Below are positions 2,885 to 31,965 of a stretch of DNA of 33,839 bases, piece after piece. Origin of the DNA: Spirochaetales bacterium (lineage in GTDB: Bacteria; Spirochaetota; Spirochaetia; SZUA-6; JAFGRV01); NCBI GenBank assembly GCA_016934975.1, contig JAFGRV010000012.1:1-33839 (forward strand), read 5' to 3'. Under the pieces are notes generated by a model. That model was not told the DNA's origin. It saw nothing but the letters and a program-made list of their open reading frames with translations, and ran no database searches. How positions within the stretch are numbered: position 1 is the stretch's first letter; each line of letters starts with the position of its first letter. Both the position numbers and the translations under genes were made by a program.

Positions 2885-2896
2885 AAGCTCCGTCCC
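2885..2896 (-). repeat. Dispersed AGGGACGGAGCT element, copy 1
   Basis: On the plus strand this reads AAGCTCCGTCCC, so the element runs on the minus strand and 11 of 12 core bases fall in the span. It lies about 40 bases left of the tandem duplication that carries the next two copies. Confidence 0.75.
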
Positions 2897-2937
2897 CAAG
2901 AACCAAGAAATCCTATCCGATTTCAACAAATCCTGAG

Positions 2938-3017
2938 CTCCGTCCCTAAAAACCTGCCTTGACAGAGAAGGATAAACCTCCGTCCCTAAAAACCTGCCTT
3001 GACAGAGAAGGATAAAC
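2938..3017 (-). repeat. Perfect 40-bp tandem duplication carrying the element
   Basis: Two identical 40-base units lie head to tail at 2938-2977 and 2978-3017. Each begins CTCCGTCCCTAAAAACCTGC and includes a TTGACA hexamer (2959-2964 and 2999-3004). Each unit starts inside the dispersed element; the full 12-base core of the first copy is at 2936-2947, and the second copy keeps only the last ten bases (2978-2987). Exact identity implies a recent duplication. Confidence 0.9.
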
Positions 3018-5116: not shown

Positions 5117-5185
5117 TGGAAATTCTTACAATCCTGATAAATCGTTAATTTTATCTTCTATAGAATAGGGTTTTATCGAAAAACT

Positions 5186-6004
5186 ATGAAACAGAGTACG
5201 ACAGATTCATTATCCAAATTCATTCCTGTTATGAAACGTGCCCGGGGTTACAGACTCTACGATAATTACGGGAAAAGATATGTTGATCTTTATCAGCAAA
5301 ACGGGCATGCACTTCTTGGACACCGGGCATTTTCACTCACCACAGTACTTAAGAATATCATCTCCAAGGGACTTATTTTTGATCTCCCCTCGATCTATGG
5401 ATCTCGATTAATAAAAGCTGTGAAAGAGCTTATTCCGGGGATACAATCTGTTTTTATAGCTGGTTCAATAGAACAGGGGTTACAATCAATAACAGATAGC
5501 GGAGAGATGAATCTCTCGCGCCATGATATATACGATCCTTTTCTAAAAAATAAAAAAGGAAAAATCGCGGTGTGGCGCCCATTTTCCGGGATAACATATG
5601 AGGATGAACAAATACTGCTCCCGATTCTTCCTTTTTCCGTCGGGGGTTCACCAATAGTCATCTGTTTCAGAAAAAAGCTGGAGATTCCGGAAAGTGCTCC
5701 TCTTTTATCACCTTTTCTTCTGGCAGGAACAGTAAGAGCTGTTTATGACCTCAATAAATATGTATTGCCGGAATGGTTTAGCCATAATTTGCTTAAAAAT
5801 AGCGTAAAATGGGATCAACGGGGAATTTATATTCTTCCTAAAATGGAAAAGAGAGAGTACGACATTGAATTTAAAAAATTCTTAAACCACGGTATCCTGC
5901 TTTCCCCTCATTATCCGCAGCCAAGTATTTTACCCGGAGAACTTTCTTCCGGAGAACTACAGAATATTTTACAATTATTTAGAAGAGAAGAGAAGAGAAT
6001 ATAA
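5186..6004 (+). CDS. Shortened class-III aminotransferase-like protein
   Basis: The N-terminal 90 residues resemble the start of class-III (glutamate-1-semialdehyde-type) aminotransferases: RARGYRLYDNYGKRYVDLYQ is the family's conserved opening, followed by NGHALLGHR. Full enzymes are about 430 residues; this one is 272. I find neither the internal Asp motif that holds the PLP ring nor the Schiff-base lysine motif, so the catalytic core appears to be missing. The frame is open throughout and the C-terminal region (LLSPFLLAGTVRAVYDLN and later) looks conserved rather than decayed. I recall similar short proteins in spirochaetes, so this may be a repurposed non-catalytic protein and not a fresh pseudogene. 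It lies 69 bases after the helicase gene and has no clear ribosome-binding site. Confidence 0.6.
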   Translation: MKQSTTDSLSKFIPVMKRARGYRLYDNYGKRYVDLYQQNGHALLGHRAFSLTTVLKNIISKGLIFDLPSIYGSRLIKAVKELIPGIQSVFIAGSIEQGLQSITDSGEMNLSRHDIYDPFLKNKKGKIAVWRPFSGITYEDEQILLPILPFSVGGSPIVICFRKKLEIPESAPLLSPFLLAGTVRAVYDLNKYVLPEWFSHNLLKNSVKWDQRGIYILPKMEKREYDIEFKKFLNHGILLSPHYPQPSILPGELSSGELQNILQLFRREEKRI

Positions 6005-13185: not shown

Positions 13186-13923
13186 ATGGTGGATCATTTA
13201 AAAAAACTGGAAAACAGATCAATTTATATAATCCGCGAAGCATATGCTCAATTCAGGGATACGGCTCTCTTGTGGTCCACAGGCAAGGACTCAACAATAA
13301 TGGTATGGCTTGCCAGAAAAGCTTTTTTCGGCAGCATTCCGTTTCCGGTTCTGTTTATTGATACGGGATCTATGTTTAACGAAATGTATGAGTTCAGGGA
13401 GCACTATAAAAAAGAATGGAACCTCAACCTCCTTATCGCGAAAAATCAGACTGCCTTTGAAAAAGATTATGGACCGGAAAACTTTTCAGATAAAGAAGAG
13501 TGCTGCGCAACCTTAAAAACAAAGGCGCTGCTGGATATCCGGGAAAAAAATAACCTTAAAGCCCTTATTTTTGGAATACGCGGAGACGACCCGGGATTCG
13601 GGGACAAGACCGCATCTATCATACAAACAAACGATCATTTTCGAATACATCCCATGCTCCACTGGACAGTAATCGACACCTGGCAGTATATTAAGAAAGA
13701 AAAAATACCAATAGTAAATCTTTACTTTGCGATACGGGGACAGAGGTATAACACGATAGGGTGCGCCCCCTGTTGCAGACCGGTAAGTTCACATGCCGAT
13801 ACACCCGGAAAAATCATACATGAACTGCAACGAGCGAAAAATACTAATCCCGGAGGGACGGAGCTGAGAGAAGGCGAAGACGCTTATACAATACAAAAAT
13901 TAAAAAGTCTGGGATATATGTGA
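13186..13923 (+). CDS. cysD: Sulfate adenylyltransferase subunit 2 (CysD-like) with APS-reductase-type cysteines
   Basis: A 245-residue PP-loop ATP pyrophosphatase, shorter than E. coli CysD (about 300). The ATP-binding PP-loop is STGKDS (residues 31-36). CysD-like blocks follow: LFIDTG, LKTKALLDI, HWTVIDTWQYIKKEKIPIVNLYFA, and a C-terminus resembling the usual CysD ending. CysD joins ATP and sulfate to give APS, with CysN supplying energy from GTP. Unusually it has C106-C107 and C193-A-P-C196 within YNTIGCAPCC, the spacing of the iron-sulfur cysteines in bacterial APS reductases, but it lacks their catalytic C-terminal Cys. One copy of the dispersed element is read in frame as GGTEL (residues 223-227). 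The ATG follows AAGGAG. The stop is six bases before cysN. Confidence 0.8.
   Translation: MVDHLKKLENRSIYIIREAYAQFRDTALLWSTGKDSTIMVWLARKAFFGSIPFPVLFIDTGSMFNEMYEFREHYKKEWNLNLLIAKNQTAFEKDYGPENFSDKEECCATLKTKALLDIREKNNLKALIFGIRGDDPGFGDKTASIIQTNDHFRIHPMLHWTVIDTWQYIKKEKIPIVNLYFAIRGQRYNTIGCAPCCRPVSSHADTPGKIIHELQRAKNTNPGGTELREGEDAYTIQKLKSLGYM
13854..13865 (+). repeat. Dispersed element copy inside cysD
   Basis: An exact AGGGACGGAGCT lies in the coding sequence near the 3' end of cysD and is translated as part of NPGGTELR. It is 99 bases from an identical copy in cysN, read in the same frame. Confidence 0.85.
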
Positions 13924-13929
13924 GGAAAA

Positions 13930-15168
13930 ATGAAGAAGATTATAAAAGCCGGAGGGACGGAGCTTACGTTTTTTATTATTGGAGATAAATTATGTGGGAA
14001 AACCGCCCTGGCAGGAAGACTTCTTTTTGAAACAAAAGCTTTACCACAAGAAAAGATAACTGAAATCAGAAAAATATCAAGGGAACTGGGGAGAGAGACA
14101 GAACTTGCATTTATTCTTGAATTTCTCAAAGATAAACAAGAGAAAACCACGACTACAATTCCATTATCATTCTCCGATAAAAAACGAAAATTTTGTATCT
14201 TCGATTTTCCCGGGAATTCAGACCTTATAAAACACATTTTAATTGGAGAAGACCAACATTTCCACGCAATAGTGATGATTGATGCAGGGAAAGCAGTCGA
14301 TGAACAAGCTCAACGATACGCACCTCTGTTAAAAATGCTTGAAATAAAAAATATTATTATTGTGCTTAACAAAATGGACTTAATAGATTTTGATAGTAAA
14401 AAATTCCGGGAAAGAGAACAAGTCCTCATTAAGGAATTCTCGCATTATTCTATCAGCCCCAAAGCAATTATTCCGGTTTCAACGAAGATAGGGTTAAATA
14501 TTACAAAACAAGCTCCTGAGATGGCATGGCACAAAGGTCCCAGTCTTATAAATGCTCTTGATACAATCCCCATAAAATCTGATAAAAAAATCAAACCACT
14601 CAGATTTCCGGTTCAGGATATATATACAATAAATGGGAAATCCGTTATCGCGGGAAGGATTGTTACCGGTTCTTTACAAAAAAACGAAGTAATCACACTC
14701 TTTCCACAGAAAAAAAAGGTTTGCGTATCAGAGATTCTCATCTTCAATAAAAAAAACATACGGAAAGTAGAGAGTGATGAAAATATCGGACTTGTAATTA
14801 ATCAGGATATCCCGATAAAACGGGGTGATGTTTTTATAAATGATGAAAAAGAAATCAAACCAGTAAACCACATATCTGCATGTATTTTATGGTTCTCTAA
14901 AGTTCCTCTGGATAAAGGAAGCACTATCACCCTCTGTTGTGCAACCCAGGAAATCTCTTCCACAGTTAAAGAGATAATAAATACAATAAACACATCAACC
15001 CTTGAAAAAATTAATAACAACCCGGATAAAATACAATGTAATGAAATTGGTATCATTCAGTTGATATCAGACCAACCAATAATTATTGAAAAAGCATCTT
15101 ATATTCCAGAGTTTGGAAGAATACTTTTTAAAATAAACGGTACACCCTGCGGTATCGGAAGAGTTTAA
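13930..15168 (+). CDS. cysN: Sulfate adenylyltransferase subunit 1 (CysN-like GTPase), divergent
   Basis: A 412-residue translation-factor-type GTPase (E. coli CysN is 475) paired with cysD. Domain I has G1 GDKLCGKT (residues 18-25), the CysN-like GRLLFETKALP, G3 DFPG (92-95), G4 NKMD (147-150) and VSTKIG. Two beta-barrel domains (about 215-300 and 305-412) follow, with the VAGRI-type turn seen here as VIAGRIVTGSL. Two points are odd. The residue after DxxG, normally His and catalytic in this superfamily, is Asn96. The N-terminal residues AGGTEL come from a copy of the dispersed element, just before the first beta strand. The ATG is preceded by GAGGAAAA, six bases after the cysD stop. No cysC, cysH or sulfite reductase gene is nearby. 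Confidence 0.8.
   Translation: MKKIIKAGGTELTFFIIGDKLCGKTALAGRLLFETKALPQEKITEIRKISRELGRETELAFILEFLKDKQEKTTTTIPLSFSDKKRKFCIFDFPGNSDLIKHILIGEDQHFHAIVMIDAGKAVDEQAQRYAPLLKMLEIKNIIIVLNKMDLIDFDSKKFREREQVLIKEFSHYSISPKAIIPVSTKIGLNITKQAPEMAWHKGPSLINALDTIPIKSDKKIKPLRFPVQDIYTINGKSVIAGRIVTGSLQKNEVITLFPQKKKVCVSEILIFNKKNIRKVESDENIGLVINQDIPIKRGDVFINDEKEIKPVNHISACILWFSKVPLDKGSTITLCCATQEISSTVKEIINTINTSTLEKINNNPDKIQCNEIGIIQLISDQPIIIEKASYIPEFGRILFKINGTPCGIGRV
13953..13964 (+). repeat. Dispersed element copy inside cysN
   Basis: An exact AGGGACGGAGCT in the ninth to twelfth codons of cysN, translated within AGGTELT. Its neighbour in cysD is in the same frame and also gives GGTEL. Confidence 0.85.
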
Positions 15169-15225: not shown

Positions 15226-15271
15226 AGGGACGGAGCTATAGTAGCTGTTAATTCCGGAGAGGGACGGAACT
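15226..15271 (+). repeat. Two direct copies of the dispersed element
   Basis: An exact copy at 15226-15237 and a one-mismatch copy at 15260-15271 (AGGGACGGAACT) lie 34 bases apart in the cysN-prkA gap. Both are followed by TAGTAGCT, so the repeated unit extends to about 22 bases here. Confidence 0.8.
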
Positions 15272-15409: not shown

Positions 15410-17629
15410 ATGAATGAAAATCTGATAAAAATAATCGAAAAGGGATCTAAAAATCAGGTAGAGGATGAAGTCCTTTCTTTTACAGAATATCTGGAAGTTA
15501 TTAAAGAACAACCATGGATAACAAGAAATACTTTCCAGTTATTGCACGATATGATTATCGCCCAGGGAGTGGAATATACTATTATTCCGGGAAAACCCAT
15601 CCACCACCGCTACAATTTTTTTGAAGACGAAAAACTTGTCAATATTTACGTTGTATTTGGTCAGCAGAAAGCAAAGGAAAATATAGTTGAGAAGATTGAT
15701 AATGCGAGCCGCGGGTTAGAAGCATCAAAACGATTATGGATACTGTTAGGTCCCCCCGGGGCGGCAAAATCCCGCTCAATGGATGGGATTAAAAGCGCCC
15801 TGAATATCTATTCTAAAAGTGCTGCCGGCCAGACTTACACACTCCTTCTCCCGACTATAGATGACCGGTTAAAAGAAAAGGCTTTATTCAAGGAAAACGG
15901 GATTTATTATCTTCAGTCACCGATTTTTGAAAGACCACTCCAGGTTATTCCCTTATCTCTTCGGAACGAATTTACCGAAGAGCTTAATAAACAAATAAAT
16001 CCTCAAACAATTAAAGCATTTTTAAAACAACATCCACAATATGATAATGAATTTCATATTAAGATTGATGGGATTATTTCCCCTTTTTCAGATTATGTGT
16101 TGAAACAATTCATGAAAGACAAAAACCTCTCCTTTGTGCAGCTTCTTCCCCATCTTAAAGTGAGAAGGATGGTGTATGACGCCCGTACAAAAACAGGAAT
16201 CGGGTCATATACACCACGGGATGAAAAAAGTCAGGAAGCGGGTTCCTTAGTCGGTAATATAGATTATAGTCTGCTCCCATCATTCGGCAGCGAATCTCAC
16301 CCTCTTGTCCATGATTACAAAGGTGAGCTTTGTTGCGGTGCAAACGGGTTTGTGGAGATCCATGAGATCCTGAAACTCTCGGATAAATTCCTTTATGAAA
16401 TGCTTTTTGCCACTCAGGATCGATTTTTCAAACCTGAAGGCCAGCCCCCGGTCCCGTTTAATGGGGTCATCATCGGTCATACAAATTTTCATGAATATAA
16501 CATGTTTATGGCAAATAAAACCTTTGAAGCTCTCCAGTCCCGTACAACCTTTATCGAAATGCCATTATCCGTCAATTTCAAAGACGAAGAAAAGATTTAT
16601 GCCTTCACGTATTCCAATACCACGAGAAAATGGTCTAAAGCAAAAAAACATACTGCCCACGTAGCCCCGCATAGTCTGCAATTCCTGAGTCTCACCGCAG
16701 TAATTACCCGACTCTATGAATCAAAACAGAATCCGAATCTTTCCCTCCTGCAGAAAGCGCTCATCTACGCAGGCAGAGCAGACAGCGGAGTTGATAACAA
16801 TATGGTACGAACAATCTTAGAAGAGTTTGAATACGTAAAACCTTCCGAAGGAACCTTTGGACTGGATCCCCGGTTTATCCAGAATGCCTTTGAAAATACA
16901 GAACATTTCCAGATCGATGAATACTATGCAAATATAAAGCGCCTTAAAGAAGAAAAATCCGATCTTGCCATGCTCACGTCGATCGCGCTCCAGAACCCAT
17001 GTGTTACTCCTCTGGATCTCTATGTGAGAATTGAAAATTCCTTGAAAGAAACCTTTGCTACAGATAAAACTAAACTCAATCATTATGTCGAGAAAATTCT
17101 CCCACAGGCAAAAAAATGGATTTTTGGTCAGATAGCCAGTGATGTCTATTCCGCAATCTTGCGGGATGATACGGTCATTGAGACAACCTGGAAAAAATAC
17201 ACAGACCACGTACGGGCTTATGCTCATAATACCACGGTTAAACATGAAGTCACCCAGGCAGATGTTCAACCTGCTGAAAATTTCATGCAAACAATTGAAC
17301 AATACCTTGGAATTCCGGATAAAGATACATTTCGTAAGGAACTGAGCGATGCGATAGCCAGTGTAAGTTACGCCGTTCTCTTAAGCGATGAACCCTCCTA
17401 TCAAAATGCCATAAAACGATATGTATTTGAAAATGAATTTAAATCCCGGGAAAACATGAAACTTCTGGGCTGGATAAAAAGTGGAAGTAGTGCATCGAAT
17501 GTGAACTCTAAAGAGCAGGAACAACTTAACGAGACGGTAAAGTATCTTATGAATAATAAAGGATACTGCGGGAAATGTGCATTTCAGGCAATAACCATCA
17601 CTGCTAATTCATCAAGCATTATGGTGTAA
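15410..17629 (+). CDS. prkA: PrkA-family serine protein kinase / AAA+ protein
   Basis: About 739 residues from the ATG at 15410; E. coli YeaG, the reference family member, is about 640. The N-terminal PrkA AAA region starts with VLSFTEYLEVIKEQP and has Walker A GPPGAAKS (residues 114-121). GFVEIHEILK and MLFATQD match the family's Walker B-linked block, followed by VPFNGVIIGHTNFHEY and a TTFIEMPL segment. The C-terminal half fits the PrkA kinase domain. Members are tied to stress and stationary phase and usually sit with yeaH and spoVR; neither is present here. A TTG start 33 bases upstream is open, but AGGGAG before the ATG favours the shorter form. The last codons (ANSSSIMV) fall in a 40-base repeat copied after the stop, so the C-terminus may have been altered. 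Confidence 0.88.
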   Translation: MNENLIKIIEKGSKNQVEDEVLSFTEYLEVIKEQPWITRNTFQLLHDMIIAQGVEYTIIPGKPIHHRYNFFEDEKLVNIYVVFGQQKAKENIVEKIDNASRGLEASKRLWILLGPPGAAKSRSMDGIKSALNIYSKSAAGQTYTLLLPTIDDRLKEKALFKENGIYYLQSPIFERPLQVIPLSLRNEFTEELNKQINPQTIKAFLKQHPQYDNEFHIKIDGIISPFSDYVLKQFMKDKNLSFVQLLPHLKVRRMVYDARTKTGIGSYTPRDEKSQEAGSLVGNIDYSLLPSFGSESHPLVHDYKGELCCGANGFVEIHEILKLSDKFLYEMLFATQDRFFKPEGQPPVPFNGVIIGHTNFHEYNMFMANKTFEALQSRTTFIEMPLSVNFKDEEKIYAFTYSNTTRKWSKAKKHTAHVAPHSLQFLSLTAVITRLYESKQNPNLSLLQKALIYAGRADSGVDNNMVRTILEEFEYVKPSEGTFGLDPRFIQNAFENTEHFQIDEYYANIKRLKEEKSDLAMLTSIALQNPCVTPLDLYVRIENSLKETFATDKTKLNHYVEKILPQAKKWIFGQIASDVYSAILRDDTVIETTWKKYTDHVRAYAHNTTVKHEVTQADVQPAENFMQTIEQYLGIPDKDTFRKELSDAIASVSYAVLLSDEPSYQNAIKRYVFENEFKSRENMKLLGWIKSGSSASNVNSKEQEQLNETVKYLMNNKGYCGKCAFQAITITANSSSIMV

Positions 17630-17699
17630 TTTCCATTCATTGGTAACAAGGTACTAAGGTGCTAATTCGTCAAGCATTATGGTATAATTTCCACTCATT
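17602..17699 (+). repeat. Imperfect 40-bp direct repeat across the prkA stop codon
   Basis: Bases 17602-17641 and 17660-17699 are 40-base copies with three differences (both start TGCTAATTC). The first copy encodes the last eight residues of PrkA and its stop codon; the second is noncoding. The second copy ends two bases before the dispersed element at 17702. Confidence 0.85.
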
Positions 17700-17701
17700 T
17701 G

Positions 17702-17786
17702 AGGGACGGAGCTTGCAATCTAACAAGATCAGGGAACTCGTGCGGATAGAAAAAAGCTTACTAAGGTATGACAAAGGGACGGAGCT
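17702..17786 (+). repeat. Two direct copies of the dispersed element upstream of the RAYT gene
   Basis: Exact cores lie at 17702-17713 and 17775-17786, 73 bases apart and in the same direction as the transposase gene that begins 86 bases further on. The first shows the extended form AGGGACGGAGCTTGCAAT, also seen at 31950-31965. Confidence 0.85.
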
Positions 17787-17872
17787 AAAAAAAGAGAGCT
17801 AAAAAAATAAAATATTTTAAAAAATATCCAAAAACATGAATTCACCACGACCTTTTGGGCTTTATATATTAT

Positions 17873-18397
17873 ATGCGAACAAAACGTAAATTAAAAAATA
17901 ATGCACGGTATCATGTCATCGCCAGGGCAAATCGCGGTGAGATGATTTTGGGATCAACGAAACTAAAGTCGATGTTTCTTGATGTGGTTAAAAGGGCGCA
18001 CAAAAGGTATAAATTTGCAGTACAAAACTTTTGTATTATGGGGAATCATGTTCATTTTATTATTGAACCGTTAAATGGTGAGAATCTATCAAAGATAATG
18101 CAATGGATTCTCAGTGTATTTGCGATGAAATATAATAGAACCTTTAGTTTTAAGGGTCATGTATTTTATGACAGGTTTAAAAGTAAAATTATAAATGATT
18201 TTAGACAATACGTTGCCACTTTTATTTATATTATGGAAAATCCTGTAAGAGCAGGAATTGTGAAAAATCCGGCTCTCTTTGAATTTAATGGTGTGAATTT
18301 TCTGAAAAAAGGATTTTATGAGGTTATTAATCCACCTGATCTTCCCATCACATTATTAGTGCCAGGTCTTCTTAATACCCGGATTACCAGGAAGTAA
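17873..18397 (+). CDS. REP-associated tyrosine transposase-like protein (RAYT, Y1/HUH family)
   Basis: A 174-residue single-copy IS200-like transposase. The HUH metal-binding motif is HVH in MGNHVHFIIEP (His59, His61). The catalytic tyrosine is likely Tyr119 in FIYIMENPVRAGIV, the usual RAYT ending block. The N-terminal KNNARYHVIARANRGEMIL is also typical. RAYT proteins nick and join single-stranded DNA at short repeats. Here no IS200-type flanking ends are evident, but two direct copies of the AGGGACGGAGCT element lie just upstream. An earlier TTG start is open; the ATG is used. A weak ribosome-binding site suggests low expression. A strong terminator stands 50 bases downstream. Catalytic residues look intact. 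Confidence 0.88.
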   Translation: MRTKRKLKNNARYHVIARANRGEMILGSTKLKSMFLDVVKRAHKRYKFAVQNFCIMGNHVHFIIEPLNGENLSKIMQWILSVFAMKYNRTFSFKGHVFYDRFKSKIINDFRQYVATFIYIMENPVRAGIVKNPALFEFNGVNFLKKGFYEVINPPDLPITLLVPGLLNTRITRK

Positions 18398-21131: not shown

Positions 21132-21541
21132 TGGAATCAAAAAAAATATGTTTATTTTTTCCAAAAAGTGAAAAAGAAAAACCTATTATTTATCACCTCG
21201 TGAAAGATTATGACCTGGTCATCAACATTTTTCGGGCTAAAATTACGGCAGAAGAAGAAGGATATCTGGTAATTGATGTCAAAGGTACAAAAGAAAATAT
21301 CGCGAAAGCTATGGAATATATGCGTAAATCCAACGTCGTTCTTAATGAAACGAATCGAGGTCTCCAACGCGACAAGGATAAATGCGTGCATTGCGGGAAT
21401 TGTCTTTCTCACTGTCCGACAAAAGCCCTTCATATAGCCAATCAAAAAACGAGAAAGATAGAGTTTGATGAATCACTCTGTATAGAGTGTCTTGCTTGTG
21501 TGAGAAATTGCCCATTTGGTGCCTGTTCCTCAATTTTCTAA
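21128..21541 (+). CDS. NIL-domain ferredoxin, partner of the DUF39 protein
   Basis: A 137-residue protein with an N-terminal NIL domain (about residues 5-75) and a C-terminal double [4Fe-4S] ferredoxin: CVHCGNCLSHCP and CIECLACVRNCP carry two complete CxxCxxCxxxCP sets. This is the MA1822-type partner, thought to deliver electrons or sulfur for homocysteine formation. The gene overlaps the DUF39 gene by four bases, and the UPF0280 gene follows two bases after its stop, so the three form one operon. Confidence 0.9.
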   Translation: MMESKKICLFFPKSEKEKPIIYHLVKDYDLVINIFRAKITAEEEGYLVIDVKGTKENIAKAMEYMRKSNVVLNETNRGLQRDKDKCVHCGNCLSHCPTKALHIANQKTRKIEFDESLCIECLACVRNCPFGACSSIF

Positions 21542-21543
21542 AA

Positions 21544-22329
21544 ATGAACACCTTTCCGGCGGAATATAAGAGAAAGACAATGCCTGTAAAGAGAACAAAA
21601 AGAATATTCACATTATTCGCCTGGAAGGATGCGCTTTATAGAATCTCTTCACCATCTTATGACATCATTGTGAATGAAATAAAACATCAACGTTACGTTC
21701 TCGAAAACTATATTCGAAAACACCCGGCTTTTAAAACATCCCTTACACCCCTTCCTCTCCTTTCAAAAGCCCCACCTATAGCAGAGGTGATGAGTGATGC
21801 GGCTTTAGTCACAAATGTCGGGCCAATGGCAGGAGTGGCCGGGGCTATAGCCCATGCAGGTGTTACAGCTGCATGCAGGGACGGAGCTGATGAAGCTATC
21901 ATTGAAAACGGTGGGGACATTTACTTAACATCTACAAGAGAGATTCTTGTGGGTTTATATTCAGGGGGAGGAAAACTTACAAACGCCCTCGCCTTTTTAG
22001 TAAAACCGGATGCCATGCCTTTGGCTCTCTGTTCTTCTTCAAGCCATATGGGTCATTCCGGAAGCTTTGGTAACTGTGATCTCGCTACGGTTACTGCTAA
22101 AAATGGCGCGTTGGCAGATGCAGCAGCGACACTCGTCTGTAATTCCGTGAAAAGTAAAGGAGATATTGAAATTGTGCTTGAAAGAACCATCACCATACCC
22201 GGAATTTTAGGTGTACTCATTATTAAAGATGATCATATTGGTATGATCGGTGAATTACCAGAACTTGTGAAAAATGCAGATCCTGAAATAAAATCCAAAA
22301 TCACTCACGATCCGGTATGGATATTGTAA
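21544..22329 (+). CDS. UPF0280 family protein (ApbE-like fold), homocysteine operon
   Basis: About 261 residues. The UPF0280 family is related to ApbE and is often found beside DUF39 and NIL-ferredoxin genes in methanogens and anaerobes, where it is linked to the same reductive sulfur step; its reaction is unproven. The family's key blocks are seen: GPMAGVAGAIAHAGV, IENGGDIYL, and CSSSSHMGHSGSFGNCDLATV. The start is uncertain: ATG at 21544, just after the ferredoxin stop, is used; ATG at 21580 is the alternative. The dispersed element occurs at 21877-21888, read as CRDGAD just before the conserved glycine-rich block, and another copy begins at the stop codon. Confidence 0.82.
   Translation: MNTFPAEYKRKTMPVKRTKRIFTLFAWKDALYRISSPSYDIIVNEIKHQRYVLENYIRKHPAFKTSLTPLPLLSKAPPIAEVMSDAALVTNVGPMAGVAGAIAHAGVTAACRDGADEAIIENGGDIYLTSTREILVGLYSGGGKLTNALAFLVKPDAMPLALCSSSSHMGHSGSFGNCDLATVTAKNGALADAAATLVCNSVKSKGDIEIVLERTITIPGILGVLIIKDDHIGMIGELPELVKNADPEIKSKITHDPVWIL
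21877..21888 (+). repeat. Dispersed element core within the UPF0280 gene
   Basis: An exact AGGGACGGAGCT read as Arg-Asp-Gly-Ala, a different frame from the copies in cysD and cysN. The coded residues fit the family consensus here, so this match could be fortuitous. Confidence 0.55.
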
Positions 22330-22340
22330 GCTCCGTCCCT
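22329..22340 (-). repeat. Dispersed element at the UPF0280 stop codon
   Basis: AGCTCCGTCCCT on the plus strand begins at the last base of the TAA stop. The surrounding ATTGTAAGCTCCGTCCCTG fits the extended 19-base form seen at 17702 and 31954. Confidence 0.8.
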
Positions 22341-22347
22341 GCTTTTA

Positions 22348-23205
22348 TTAATCAATAATATCGTAAAAATGCCACTGCTTACAGAGACCTGCTATACCAT
22401 ATTCTTTTACTTTACCTTCAAATTGCGGCCAGTTATCTCCGTAATGCATGAGATATATTTTTTTCTTAATTTCCGGAGATAAACCATTTACTTCTTCTAA
22501 GGAAGAATGAACTCCTCCGCCAAAAAACTGAACATCATGAAAAATTGCATCAAACTCAAAAATCGCGTCATATTCTTCGATTAATTTTCGATCAAATTTT
22601 GTATCACTTGTAAATAAAACTCGATTATCGAGGATAACTCCGCTGCTCCAGAATGCTGTTTCCCAGGTAAGTGAGGTATCGGGAATATGCATAGTCCTGA
22701 AGATTTTGAGGTTTAAATCACCCAAATCCGCGTTAAGAGTTTCCCGCGGATAATCGGGAAGCCAGGTAGGCCGTATAATTTCCCATAAATTGGCAAAACT
22801 AAGGAGTTTCCCTGCTTCTTCTTCATTAAACCCGGACCCCCCTTTTAAGGATTTATCCCACAAGACATGCTGATATGTATCATTAATAATAATGGTAGGT
22901 TTTTGACGCTTCACATATCTGTTCATAAGCATGACTTCTTCGAGTCCGCCAATGTGGTCTGCATGTGAATGCGTAATAAGAAAATTTCTAATATCCGTAA
23001 TGTTCATTCCCAATTCATAAAAGGCCTGCGGGGTTTTTGTTCCGCAATCTATAAGTAGATGCTCTTTACCTTTTATAACAAGTACATTATTCTGATAATG
23101 GGTTTTTGAAAAAGCAGATCCCACGCCGACAAAAAAAAGCGAAAGATTTCCATCATTTGTCAATTTTACCGGTTTTTCTTTAAGTTCTCTTATCTTGATT
23201 GCCAT
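22348..23205 (-). CDS. MBL-fold metallohydrolase
   Basis: A 285-residue metallo-beta-lactamase-fold protein. The main metal motif is THSHADHIGG (H79, H81, D83, H84). Later ligands are likely the His in TMHIPDTS, the Asp in FTSDTKFD, and the His in LMHYGDNW, so a two-metal site is plausible. It lacks a signal peptide and should be cytoplasmic. Family members cut phosphodiesters, thioesters or lactams; the layout recalls the tRNase Z/cyclic-nucleotide phosphodiesterase branch, but the substrate cannot be named. ATG is used with AAAGGAT about nine bases upstream. It faces the homocysteine operon and follows the oxidoreductase gene after a 184-base gap, so it may have its own promoter. Confidence 0.85.
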   Translation of the reverse strand: MAIKIRELKEKPVKLTNDGNLSLFFVGVGSAFSKTHYQNNVLVIKGKEHLLIDCGTKTPQAFYELGMNITDIRNFLITHSHADHIGGLEEVMLMNRYVKRQKPTIIINDTYQHVLWDKSLKGGSGFNEEEAGKLLSFANLWEIIRPTWLPDYPRETLNADLGDLNLKIFRTMHIPDTSLTWETAFWSSGVILDNRVLFTSDTKFDRKLIEEYDAIFEFDAIFHDVQFFGGGVHSSLEEVNGLSPEIKKKIYLMHYGDNWPQFEGKVKEYGIAGLCKQWHFYDIID

Positions 23206-30221: not shown

Positions 30222-31886
30222 TTAATTGATTGTATCGGCCTCATAATTCTTCCCATCATAATAATATGAGGAAAAACTCATGAAACATCCGTTATTCATG
30301 GCGGAAATAAGGGGATGAGAACCCCGTTTTAAGGTAAAAATAATACTTTTAGCGGCAAAGGAAACAGTAAAAGGGATATCCAGATATTCCAAAGTGTTCT
30401 TCTTTACCAGATAGATTGATGAATCCATGACATCTTCCGTGAGCTGAACAGATGATTTTTTCCCCTTTTCTTTTACATGGGAGACTGAACATTCCAGTTC
30501 GATGTTCCTGTCGCCATCAACATCAATTTTAAAACTCCAGTTATATTCCATGGTATTGGGATTTACCCCGTCGTGGTTTACTTTAAGTCGCTTGGGGAGT
30601 TCAACCAGATTCATGGTAAGGAGAATTTCTTTTTTTGTATATTCAACCGAACAGGAGGTGATATCAGCATATTTTATTGAAGAGGGACCCTTTTTATCAT
30701 TAATCCGGGTGATTTTGCCGGGATCAACCGGATGCAACGGATAAGCACTTCCGGAAACTTCATCTCCATTATCGAATTCAGTTTCCTCCATGTCATCCCG
30801 GCTGCAAAACTCTTCACTCACCTCGTCCATGGCAATCTCTTCATCCGGGGAAACATCGGGAGTTCCGGATGCGTTTATTTCCGGTACATGCAAGGTTTTA
30901 CCCGTAACTCCCAGGGTTTTCATAAGAGATTGATAGACCGGTTTTTCCATCTCCTCTGCCAGAGTAGTGTATACATTAAAAAAATTGGAAAATCCGTTTG
31001 TTGTCAATGAATCCGAACTGATATAGAGGAAGTCATTACTATCGTAGATCGTTACGTTATTTTTCCTTATTATTTCAAAGAGTTCTTTCTTCTTTTTAAG
31101 ATATTCAATAATAAAATTATGTGCTTCCGTACTTATTTTTACAAATGCCTTTTTAAAGGATCTATTATTGATTATATCTTTATACACATTTTTTGATTCT
31201 TTCTCCGCATACAGCAGGTATTTAAGGATAAAAAATTTAAACTCCAGGATGCCATAAAGAGTGCCGTTTATTCCGGTGAAATAATTCCCCCAAAATGGTG
31301 TATTCTCATCTTTCATGAAAAGGGGATACAAATCATACCCTGCCCGGGTTCCCTGGAGATACGCATTATATTCATCCAAAAGTCCGTAAATACCATGGGC
31401 CTGGGTAGAAAGGTTTCTTTGTGTTGTATCGATATAGGTAAACCGGTATGTTCTTAAATCCTCGGAAAACTCGTTTTTCATGTCTTTTGAGGGAAAGGTT
31501 TGTGTGAGCTTCACTAACACCGAATCCTGTGTGTTTATATAAACATAATAATTTGACCCCGATACCCCCCGGCTTTTCGCGACAATACTCCCTAATTCGC
31601 CGGTATAGCCGTGACAGAGCTCATGCACAATTGTATTAATGGTTGATGTTATTGATTCCGTGGTTATATCATCAACATAATCCATAAAATCCGTCCGGCT
31701 ATGAGCAGGGACTTTGGTATTATAGGTATCCACAATGGAAAACCCGTCTTTTGTATAGGTTTTTAGCAAATATAATATGTAGTCTCTTTCTGCGAGAGAA
31801 TCCGGACCGGGATCATTACCAAAACCTAACGATGAGACAAAACTGATGAGGATGATGAAAACCCAAAGAATATAATTTTTAAACAT
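30222..31886 (-). CDS. Secreted protein with HExxH zinc-metallopeptidase motif
   Basis: A 554-residue protein I cannot place in a named family. A signal peptide (about 1-23, MFKNYILWVFIILISFVSS) is followed by a conserved-looking domain with VHELCHGYTGE: His88, Glu89 and His92 form an HExxH zinc site. About 80 residues later LLDEYNAYLQG supplies Glu172, a suitable third ligand of gluzincin type. A helical middle part with a lysine-rich stretch, an acidic linker (about 345-385), and a beta-rich C-terminal domain (about 400-554) follow. It is probably a periplasmic or surface protease. The ATG at 31886 is used, with GAAGGAA upstream; the longer reading begins within a repeat element and would spoil the signal peptide. 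Confidence 0.7.
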   Translation of the reverse strand: MFKNYILWVFIILISFVSSLGFGNDPGPDSLAERDYILYLLKTYTKDGFSIVDTYNTKVPAHSRTDFMDYVDDITTESITSTINTIVHELCHGYTGELGSIVAKSRGVSGSNYYVYINTQDSVLVKLTQTFPSKDMKNEFSEDLRTYRFTYIDTTQRNLSTQAHGIYGLLDEYNAYLQGTRAGYDLYPLFMKDENTPFWGNYFTGINGTLYGILEFKFFILKYLLYAEKESKNVYKDIINNRSFKKAFVKISTEAHNFIIEYLKKKKELFEIIRKNNVTIYDSNDFLYISSDSLTTNGFSNFFNVYTTLAEEMEKPVYQSLMKTLGVTGKTLHVPEINASGTPDVSPDEEIAMDEVSEEFCSRDDMEETEFDNGDEVSGSAYPLHPVDPGKITRINDKKGPSSIKYADITSCSVEYTKKEILLTMNLVELPKRLKVNHDGVNPNTMEYNWSFKIDVDGDRNIELECSVSHVKEKGKKSSVQLTEDVMDSSIYLVKKNTLEYLDIPFTVSFAAKSIIFTLKRGSHPLISAMNNGCFMSFSSYYYDGKNYEADTIN

Positions 31887-31916
31887 ATCAATTCCTTCTT
31901 TATTCAAGATGTCGTG

Positions 31917-31965
31917 AGCTCCGTCCCCACTCATTGCAAACTATAAAATTGCAAGCTCCGTCCCT
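31917..31965 (-). repeat. Two direct copies of the dispersed element in the HExxH gene leader
   Basis: Copies at 31917-31928 (one mismatch) and 31954-31965 (exact) lie 37 bases apart, both in the sense direction of the downstream gene. The repeated unit extends over the flanking TTGCAA, so the longer form is about 19 bases. Confidence 0.85.

Follow-up and report, generated by a model that had tools for sequence, protein, structure and literature searches.

Our analysis suggests that a RAYT-type enzyme is matched by a cognate DNA word, which accumulates around the gene encoding it. The window, i.e. the whole stretch of DNA analysed, is one entire contig (C256, 33,839 bp) of the 6.8 Mb draft genome G000, which is 87% complete with 5.5% contamination. 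The gene concerned (17873..18397, + strand) is intact and encodes a REP-associated tyrosine transposase (RAYT)-like HUH endonuclease, its ORF starting at ATG 17873 with TTG 17855 as an alternative. The protein matches Y1_Tnp of Pfam with 46.5 bits (cut-off 23), and its best NCBIfam model is REP_Tyr_transpos (NF047646; 70.3 bits, 1.5e-19, slightly below the cut-off of 80). Counting residues from ATG 17873, the catalytic residues are all in place, with H59-V-H61 as the HUH motif and Y119-IME-N123-P124 as Y-x3-NP, and both motifs are invariant across the 12 RAYT sequences compared. Among PDB structures, the AlphaFold2 model (pLDDT 86.9) best matches 4ER8 (TM 0.70), which shows the E. coli RAYT together with a REP hairpin; the IS200/IS605 transposases of IS608 and ISDra2 are the second-best structural matches. 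W94 and Q95 of the E. coli protein contact GTAG (PMC6006769); the residues aligned to them here are F and Y. The Pfam scan gave Y1_Tnp alone, with no C-terminal HTH. Scans for promoters and terminators 5' of the gene revealed no clear signal over shuffles. Named relatives of the protein are Spirochaetota. In the sister species G017, the orthologues of the genes neighbouring the RAYT are split over different contigs.

The element is present in the window as nine exact copies of the 12-mer AGGGACGGAGCT and, as GGGACGGAGC, in 11 exact copies where 0.03 are expected; none of 100 shuffles reached 11. Two AGGGACGGAGCT copies are found on the strand of the RAYT gene at 17702..17713 and 17775..17786, 171 and 98 nt before its ATG. 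This agrees with the original prediction, which had placed two exact copies within 171 bases upstream of what it took to be the only transposase of the window; indeed, a scan of the 20 larger ORFs revealed no second one. The prediction had let the feature begin at 17602, which is the start not of the element but of an unrelated 40-nt near-duplicate (17602-17641 / 17660-17699, 93%) that lies 5' of the RAYT leader and contains a TATAAT-like box. Four further copies are on the + strand: 13854..13865, close to the 3' end of a PAPS-reductase-like ORF and with a one-residue gap in the homologue alignment; 13953..13964, at the junction of the PAPS-reductase and EF-Tu-like genes; 15226..15237, intergenic and followed by a one-mismatch copy GGGACGGAACTT at 15261; and 21877..21888, within the conserved ORF 21487-22329. 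On the - strand, an intergenic copy (22329..22340) is located where two convergent genes end, and the remaining four form two head-to-tail pairs. One pair comprises 31916..31927 (GGGACGGAGCTC), near the start of ORF 30222-31934, and 31954..31965, 37 nt away. The other comprises 2885..2896 (GGGACGGAGCTT) and 2936..2947, 50 nt away, beside a one-mismatch copy GGGACGGAGGTT at 2975. The absence of hairpin structure, also predicted, holds at all 11 copies (z -1.5 to +0.45), and a hairpin or REPIN organization of the element was dropped for this reason. On its sequence, the element is plausibly an unusual, hairpin-free candidate substrate of the RAYT.

The association of RAYT and element is general and extends beyond the window. 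The whole genome contains 41 copies of GGGACGGAGCT, against one for the reversed-pattern control. The window contig, which represents 0.5% of the genome, carries 11 of these copies (binomial p about 1e-16). The original prediction had proposed looking for high copy numbers in other RAYT-bearing genomes, and for element-rich genomes devoid of a RAYT gene. We compared 26 genomes of the order. Each of the three element-rich ones (41, 44 and 21 copies) has a RAYT homologue; no element-rich genome lacked one, the RAYT-less genomes having 0-7 copies, near the reversed-pattern controls. When about 12 kb around each of 58 distinct homologous spirochaete RAYT loci was searched de novo, with no motif assumed, the top over-represented 9-mer was a dialect of RGGGACRGNNC(W) at 41 loci, as counted from the per-locus output. 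The clade-wide form of the motif is RGGGACRGNNCW. Its conserved span is about 12 nt and the flanks are random in most groups; a longer conserved unit was thus ruled out.

Position and strand of the copies are related to the gene at short range. Most RAYT loci have a same-strand copy inside the 200 nt upstream, where same-strand and opposite copies number 63 and 6 (37 loci versus 3, p = 2e-8). From 200 to 600 nt 3' of the genes inverted copies prevail (20:7), and farther than 600 nt there is no orientation bias. Close pairs of elements are head-to-tail in 38 cases and inverted in 8. In the sister species G017, at least 14 exact copies are arranged in tandem and in one orientation, with a period of about 22–24 nt, at a contig end (L071, G017:C6:47000-52612, positions 5130-5613).

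At larger scale the copies form a halo of about 10–60 kb around the RAYT, with 0.65–1.98 copies per kb inside and 0–0.05 outside, a ratio that is flattered by the fact that the halo limits were drawn from the copies themselves. In views of 60–80 kb, the halo of the G388 RAYT extends from -14.5 to +4.9 kb and comprises 43 copies, the 54 kb left on this contig being devoid of any; in this genome the copies are almost confined to its two RAYT contigs. G237 has 17 copies, which span -7.8 to +1.4 kb relative to its RAYT, and G021, G392 and G368 have 31–43 copies across 30–60 kb. Two controls are independent of the copy-drawn limits: no copy was found in 81 kb taken from seven regions elsewhere in four RAYT-bearing genomes, nor in 45 kb of RAYT-less regions of G017 carrying orthologues of window genes. 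Genome-wide dispersal of the element was rejected, the copies being local to the RAYT. One-mismatch words are weakly enriched in halos and scarce, and two-mismatch words are slightly depleted (0.78 versus 0.91 per kb, one-sided p = 0.04). A clear halo is absent at some RAYT loci, e.g. L146, L165, L167 and L169. G237 also presents an exception, with clusters of 10 copies (L242, G237:C1:680001-700000) and 8 copies (L243, G237:C1:3244000-3262000) near which tblastn detected no RAYT in the fetched regions. It is possible that these are ghost halos left after loss of the RAYT.

The word itself varies with the enzyme. The dialects found are GGGACGGAGC, GGGACGGAGG, GGGACAGAGC, GGGACAGACC, GGGACAGACA and GGGACGGTGG, of which GGGACGGAGG, like GGGGACAGAGCT, differs from the AGGGACGGAGCT of the window. 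Dialect tracks the RAYT tree, with 20 changes versus a shuffled mean of 31.7 (none of 200 shuffles was as low), and switches between GGAGC and GGAGG are frequent on this tree. Paralogous RAYTs within one genome also differ: in G000 the ratio of GGAGC to GGAGG is 11:1 for the window gene and 2:10 for the gene on C351 (p = 6e-4), and the halos of the RAYT paralogues in G388 likewise differ in dialect (p = 1.4e-5). Distant RAYTs show a like arrangement with other words, namely GGGGTCAGAGTAA (L171), GGTGACAGTCACC (L251), GTGACACGAGCTC (L131, Coriobacteriaceae) and GGGACAGCGCC (L129, Firestonebacteria). Around another distant RAYT (37% identity; L170, G369:C82:72300-84800), about 41 copies of the unrelated word ACCTGGCACC spread over 12.5 kb in a halo-like manner. 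In the Coriobacteriaceae MAG (L131, 3430-5840), nine GTGACACGAGC are organized in three head-to-tail arrays with a 22-nt period, which surround a RAYT-like gene whose tail is apparently HTH-like.

The copies inside genes, judged from alignments, are of in-place origin at the approximately ten genic sites sampled: since they align gap-free with homologues that are devoid of the motif, the resolved genic copies arose by substitution. At the copy 21877..21888, the orthologue of the sister species is gap-free and reads AAGCCGGTGC at the same position, and at a copy of G346 (L142:3387) three family relatives have TGCCGACGGC, TGCCGACCGC and TCTCCATCGC there. Over ten genic sites the homologous 10-mers are on average 5.2 mismatches from the motif, versus 7.2 at control positions. 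Several alignments with lower-identity homologues have small gaps near copies, and none of the homologue alignments showed a genic copy as a clean insertion of 12 nt. These observations divide the original prediction that the RAYT had spread the element. The link between the two stands, through the clustering of copies and through dialects that follow the phylogeny, and insertion of the 12-mer at genic copies was rejected. Once present, the copies appear to be kept over evolution, as far as one species pair can indicate: comparison of the halos that are orthologous between G346 and G368 gave 17 alignable copies, of which 14 are exactly shared, whereas random 10-mers are exact in 7.5%; in poor stretches the alignment may have been pulled towards the motif. 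Flanks of the retained copies are 57% identical, and most shared sites are in gap-free coding alignment.

To account for these features we propose, tentatively and with somewhat less than even confidence, that an HUH endonuclease of the RAYT clade has its own motif of about 12 nt, which accretes in place near the gene of the enzyme and is held there by a drive dependent on linkage. The motif, AGGGACGGAGCT in the window, would be cognate, unstructured and asymmetric. One copy or a short head-to-tail array would be placed directly 5' of the RAYT, in many cases together with an inverted copy located a few hundred nt 3', and more copies would build up by substitution, not insertion, over roughly 10–60 kb. 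We infer that the RAYT binds and cuts the motif in single-stranded form and that the maintaining force is linkage drive. Motif-bearing DNA near the RAYT would be favoured by its nick-and-join activity, and copies would thereby be maintained. In the form that we prefer, RAYT-mediated single-strand excision, transfer or recombination of the RAYT segment with its flanks could use each extra site as an alternative end. Sites would then be selected in proportion to their linkage to the RAYT, a selfish drive like that proposed for DNA uptake sequences. Such a drive would account for the halo, the conservation and the dialects, and the depletion of two-mismatch words was counted in its favour. The lack of distal orientation bias speaks against its simple directional-transfer form, and simple directional mobilization was rejected on the same ground. 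The RAYT-less clusters of G237 and the RAYT loci without a clear halo also count against the proposal.

A second possibility, to which we give roughly a one-in-four weight or slightly better, is that the enzyme itself writes the motif. The HUH protein, acting mainly in cis close to its gene, would expose or carry a single-strand copy of the motif from the upstream array and write it into nearby single-stranded DNA, a partly matching stretch being replaced in one event and repeated rewriting keeping the copies identical. Templated conversion of this kind would account for the several changes per 10-mer without indel and for the rarity of intermediates in the halo; the scarcity of one-mismatch words favours block conversion and argues against linkage drive. 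The sharp local range, the setting of the dialect by the local RAYT and the proximity of homologous 10-mers to the motif, as microhomology predicts, are also in agreement with it. However, the partial match could be explained by amino-acid constraint alone, the sites shared by G346 and G368 are long-lived and not fresh, and replacement of a stretch by another of equal length is not among the known HUH reactions. We rank linkage drive first, somewhat ahead of templated conversion.

Conventional RAYT transposition, in which, as in the original prediction, the 12-mer would be mobile as a minimal element and would have been inserted in the vicinity of the gene, is improbable. Tandem arrays with a period of about 24 nt in G017:C6 and the predominance of head-to-tail close pairs are what such a process could leave, and intergenic copies could be insertions. 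However, the gap-free alignment of genic copies and the absence of a common flank or longer unit are difficult to reconcile with it. We find it quite improbable that the motif is a host-selected site which, with a domesticated RAYT, serves a local chromosomal function of benefit to the host, such as repair or the processing of replication forks. The strong conservation of sites in coding DNA would fit, and RAYTs have been called domesticated transposases (PMC8266576). Nevertheless, the halos extend over unrelated housekeeping genes and follow the RAYT rather than a gene set, orthologues away from a RAYT being devoid of copies, and paralogous RAYTs keep separate dialects. An origin by chance, base composition or a contaminant contig, to which the contamination of the draft could point, is rejected as next to impossible given the excess of copies over expectation, the near-empty reversed-pattern controls and the repetition of the pattern in dozens of independent genomes.

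The nearest known kind to this system is TIRYT/TIRtron. These comprise RAYT-like genes with flanking repeats that share GGGGWSAS, copies of which are moderately abundant (Di Nocera et al. 2013, PMC3733652), and long terminal inverted repeats and families have been described for them (PMC3733652, PMC6006769). TIRYTs have been linked to subclass 2.1 of TnpA_Y1, which contains nearly all of Bertels RAYT group 1 and in which automatic and manual searches alike yielded no REP-like sequences (Quentin et al. 2018, PMC6006769); TIRYT/TIRtron and subclass 2.1 are probably the same. The RAYT-like Y1 gene, the short flanking repeats and the moderately abundant copies elsewhere are common to both systems, as is, in many spirochaete loci (e.g. 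L123, L124 and L135), an upstream copy paired with an inverted downstream copy. The GGGGACAG dialects of relatives fit GGGGWSAS, whereas the (A/G)GGGACGG of the window is off at one position. The window gene has no inverted downstream copy within 3.4 kb, the first being that at 22329, about 3.9 kb away. Because of this and of the missing C-terminal HTH, we have not filed the window RAYT as a TIRYT. The system works like one nonetheless, and several relatives have the full arrangement. The TIRYT/TIRtron papers do not describe a gene-centred halo, an in-place coding origin or within-genome dialects.

With the RAYT/TnpA_REP systems of E. coli and Pseudomonas the window RAYT shares the protein fold, the catalytic residues, cognate repeats beside the gene and a dialect matching the protein lineage. 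In contrast to these systems, the element has no GTAG/GTGG foot, hairpin or inverted REPIN pairs; its copies are local and largely genic instead of dispersed between genes, and close pairs are head-to-tail. The Y1 HUH fold is shared with IS200/IS605 (IS608, ISDra2), but no element with hairpin ends was found here and the window protein is nearer in sequence to the RAYT model. DNA uptake sequences (USS) and Chi-like words are genome-wide. They resemble the present motif as short asymmetric words that are built by substitution, including inside genes, and held at exact match, whereas here the word is confined near one gene, which sets its dialect.

The halos, the in-place origin and the within-genome dialects appear to be new to the literature searched, which left most subscription papers outside its scope; the papers listed by searches with the motif words themselves were all unrelated. 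We are evenly divided on the general statement that RAYT/TIRYT-type HUH endonucleases build and maintain in place, in host genes, a bounded halo of their recognition word, each lineage with its own. This would be a gene-centred, sequence-specific and length-preserving form of rewriting or linkage drive, which is not known to have been described for a transposase. The 2018 survey gave no REP-like substrate for two large subclasses of TnpA_Y1 (PMC6006769), and the role of the TIRYT motif was left open in the 2013 work (PMC3733652). The 12-nt word with its lineage-specific dialects can at once be considered as a candidate substrate for such RAYTs. Should the in-place halo hold true, it would reveal either a new route by which a nuclease rewrites DNA in its vicinity or a selfish drive that acts via recognition sites in host coding sequence, and motif clusters without a RAYT may label former sites of such genes.

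Two other features of the window deserve mention. A perfect 40-nt tandem duplication (2938-3017) that includes the element core CTCCGTCCC adjoins a UvrD-like helicase gene. The stretch 22348-23205 encodes a protein of the metallo-beta-lactamase fold that matches Anti-Pycsar_Apyc1 of Pfam above cut-off and is perhaps RNase Z-like.
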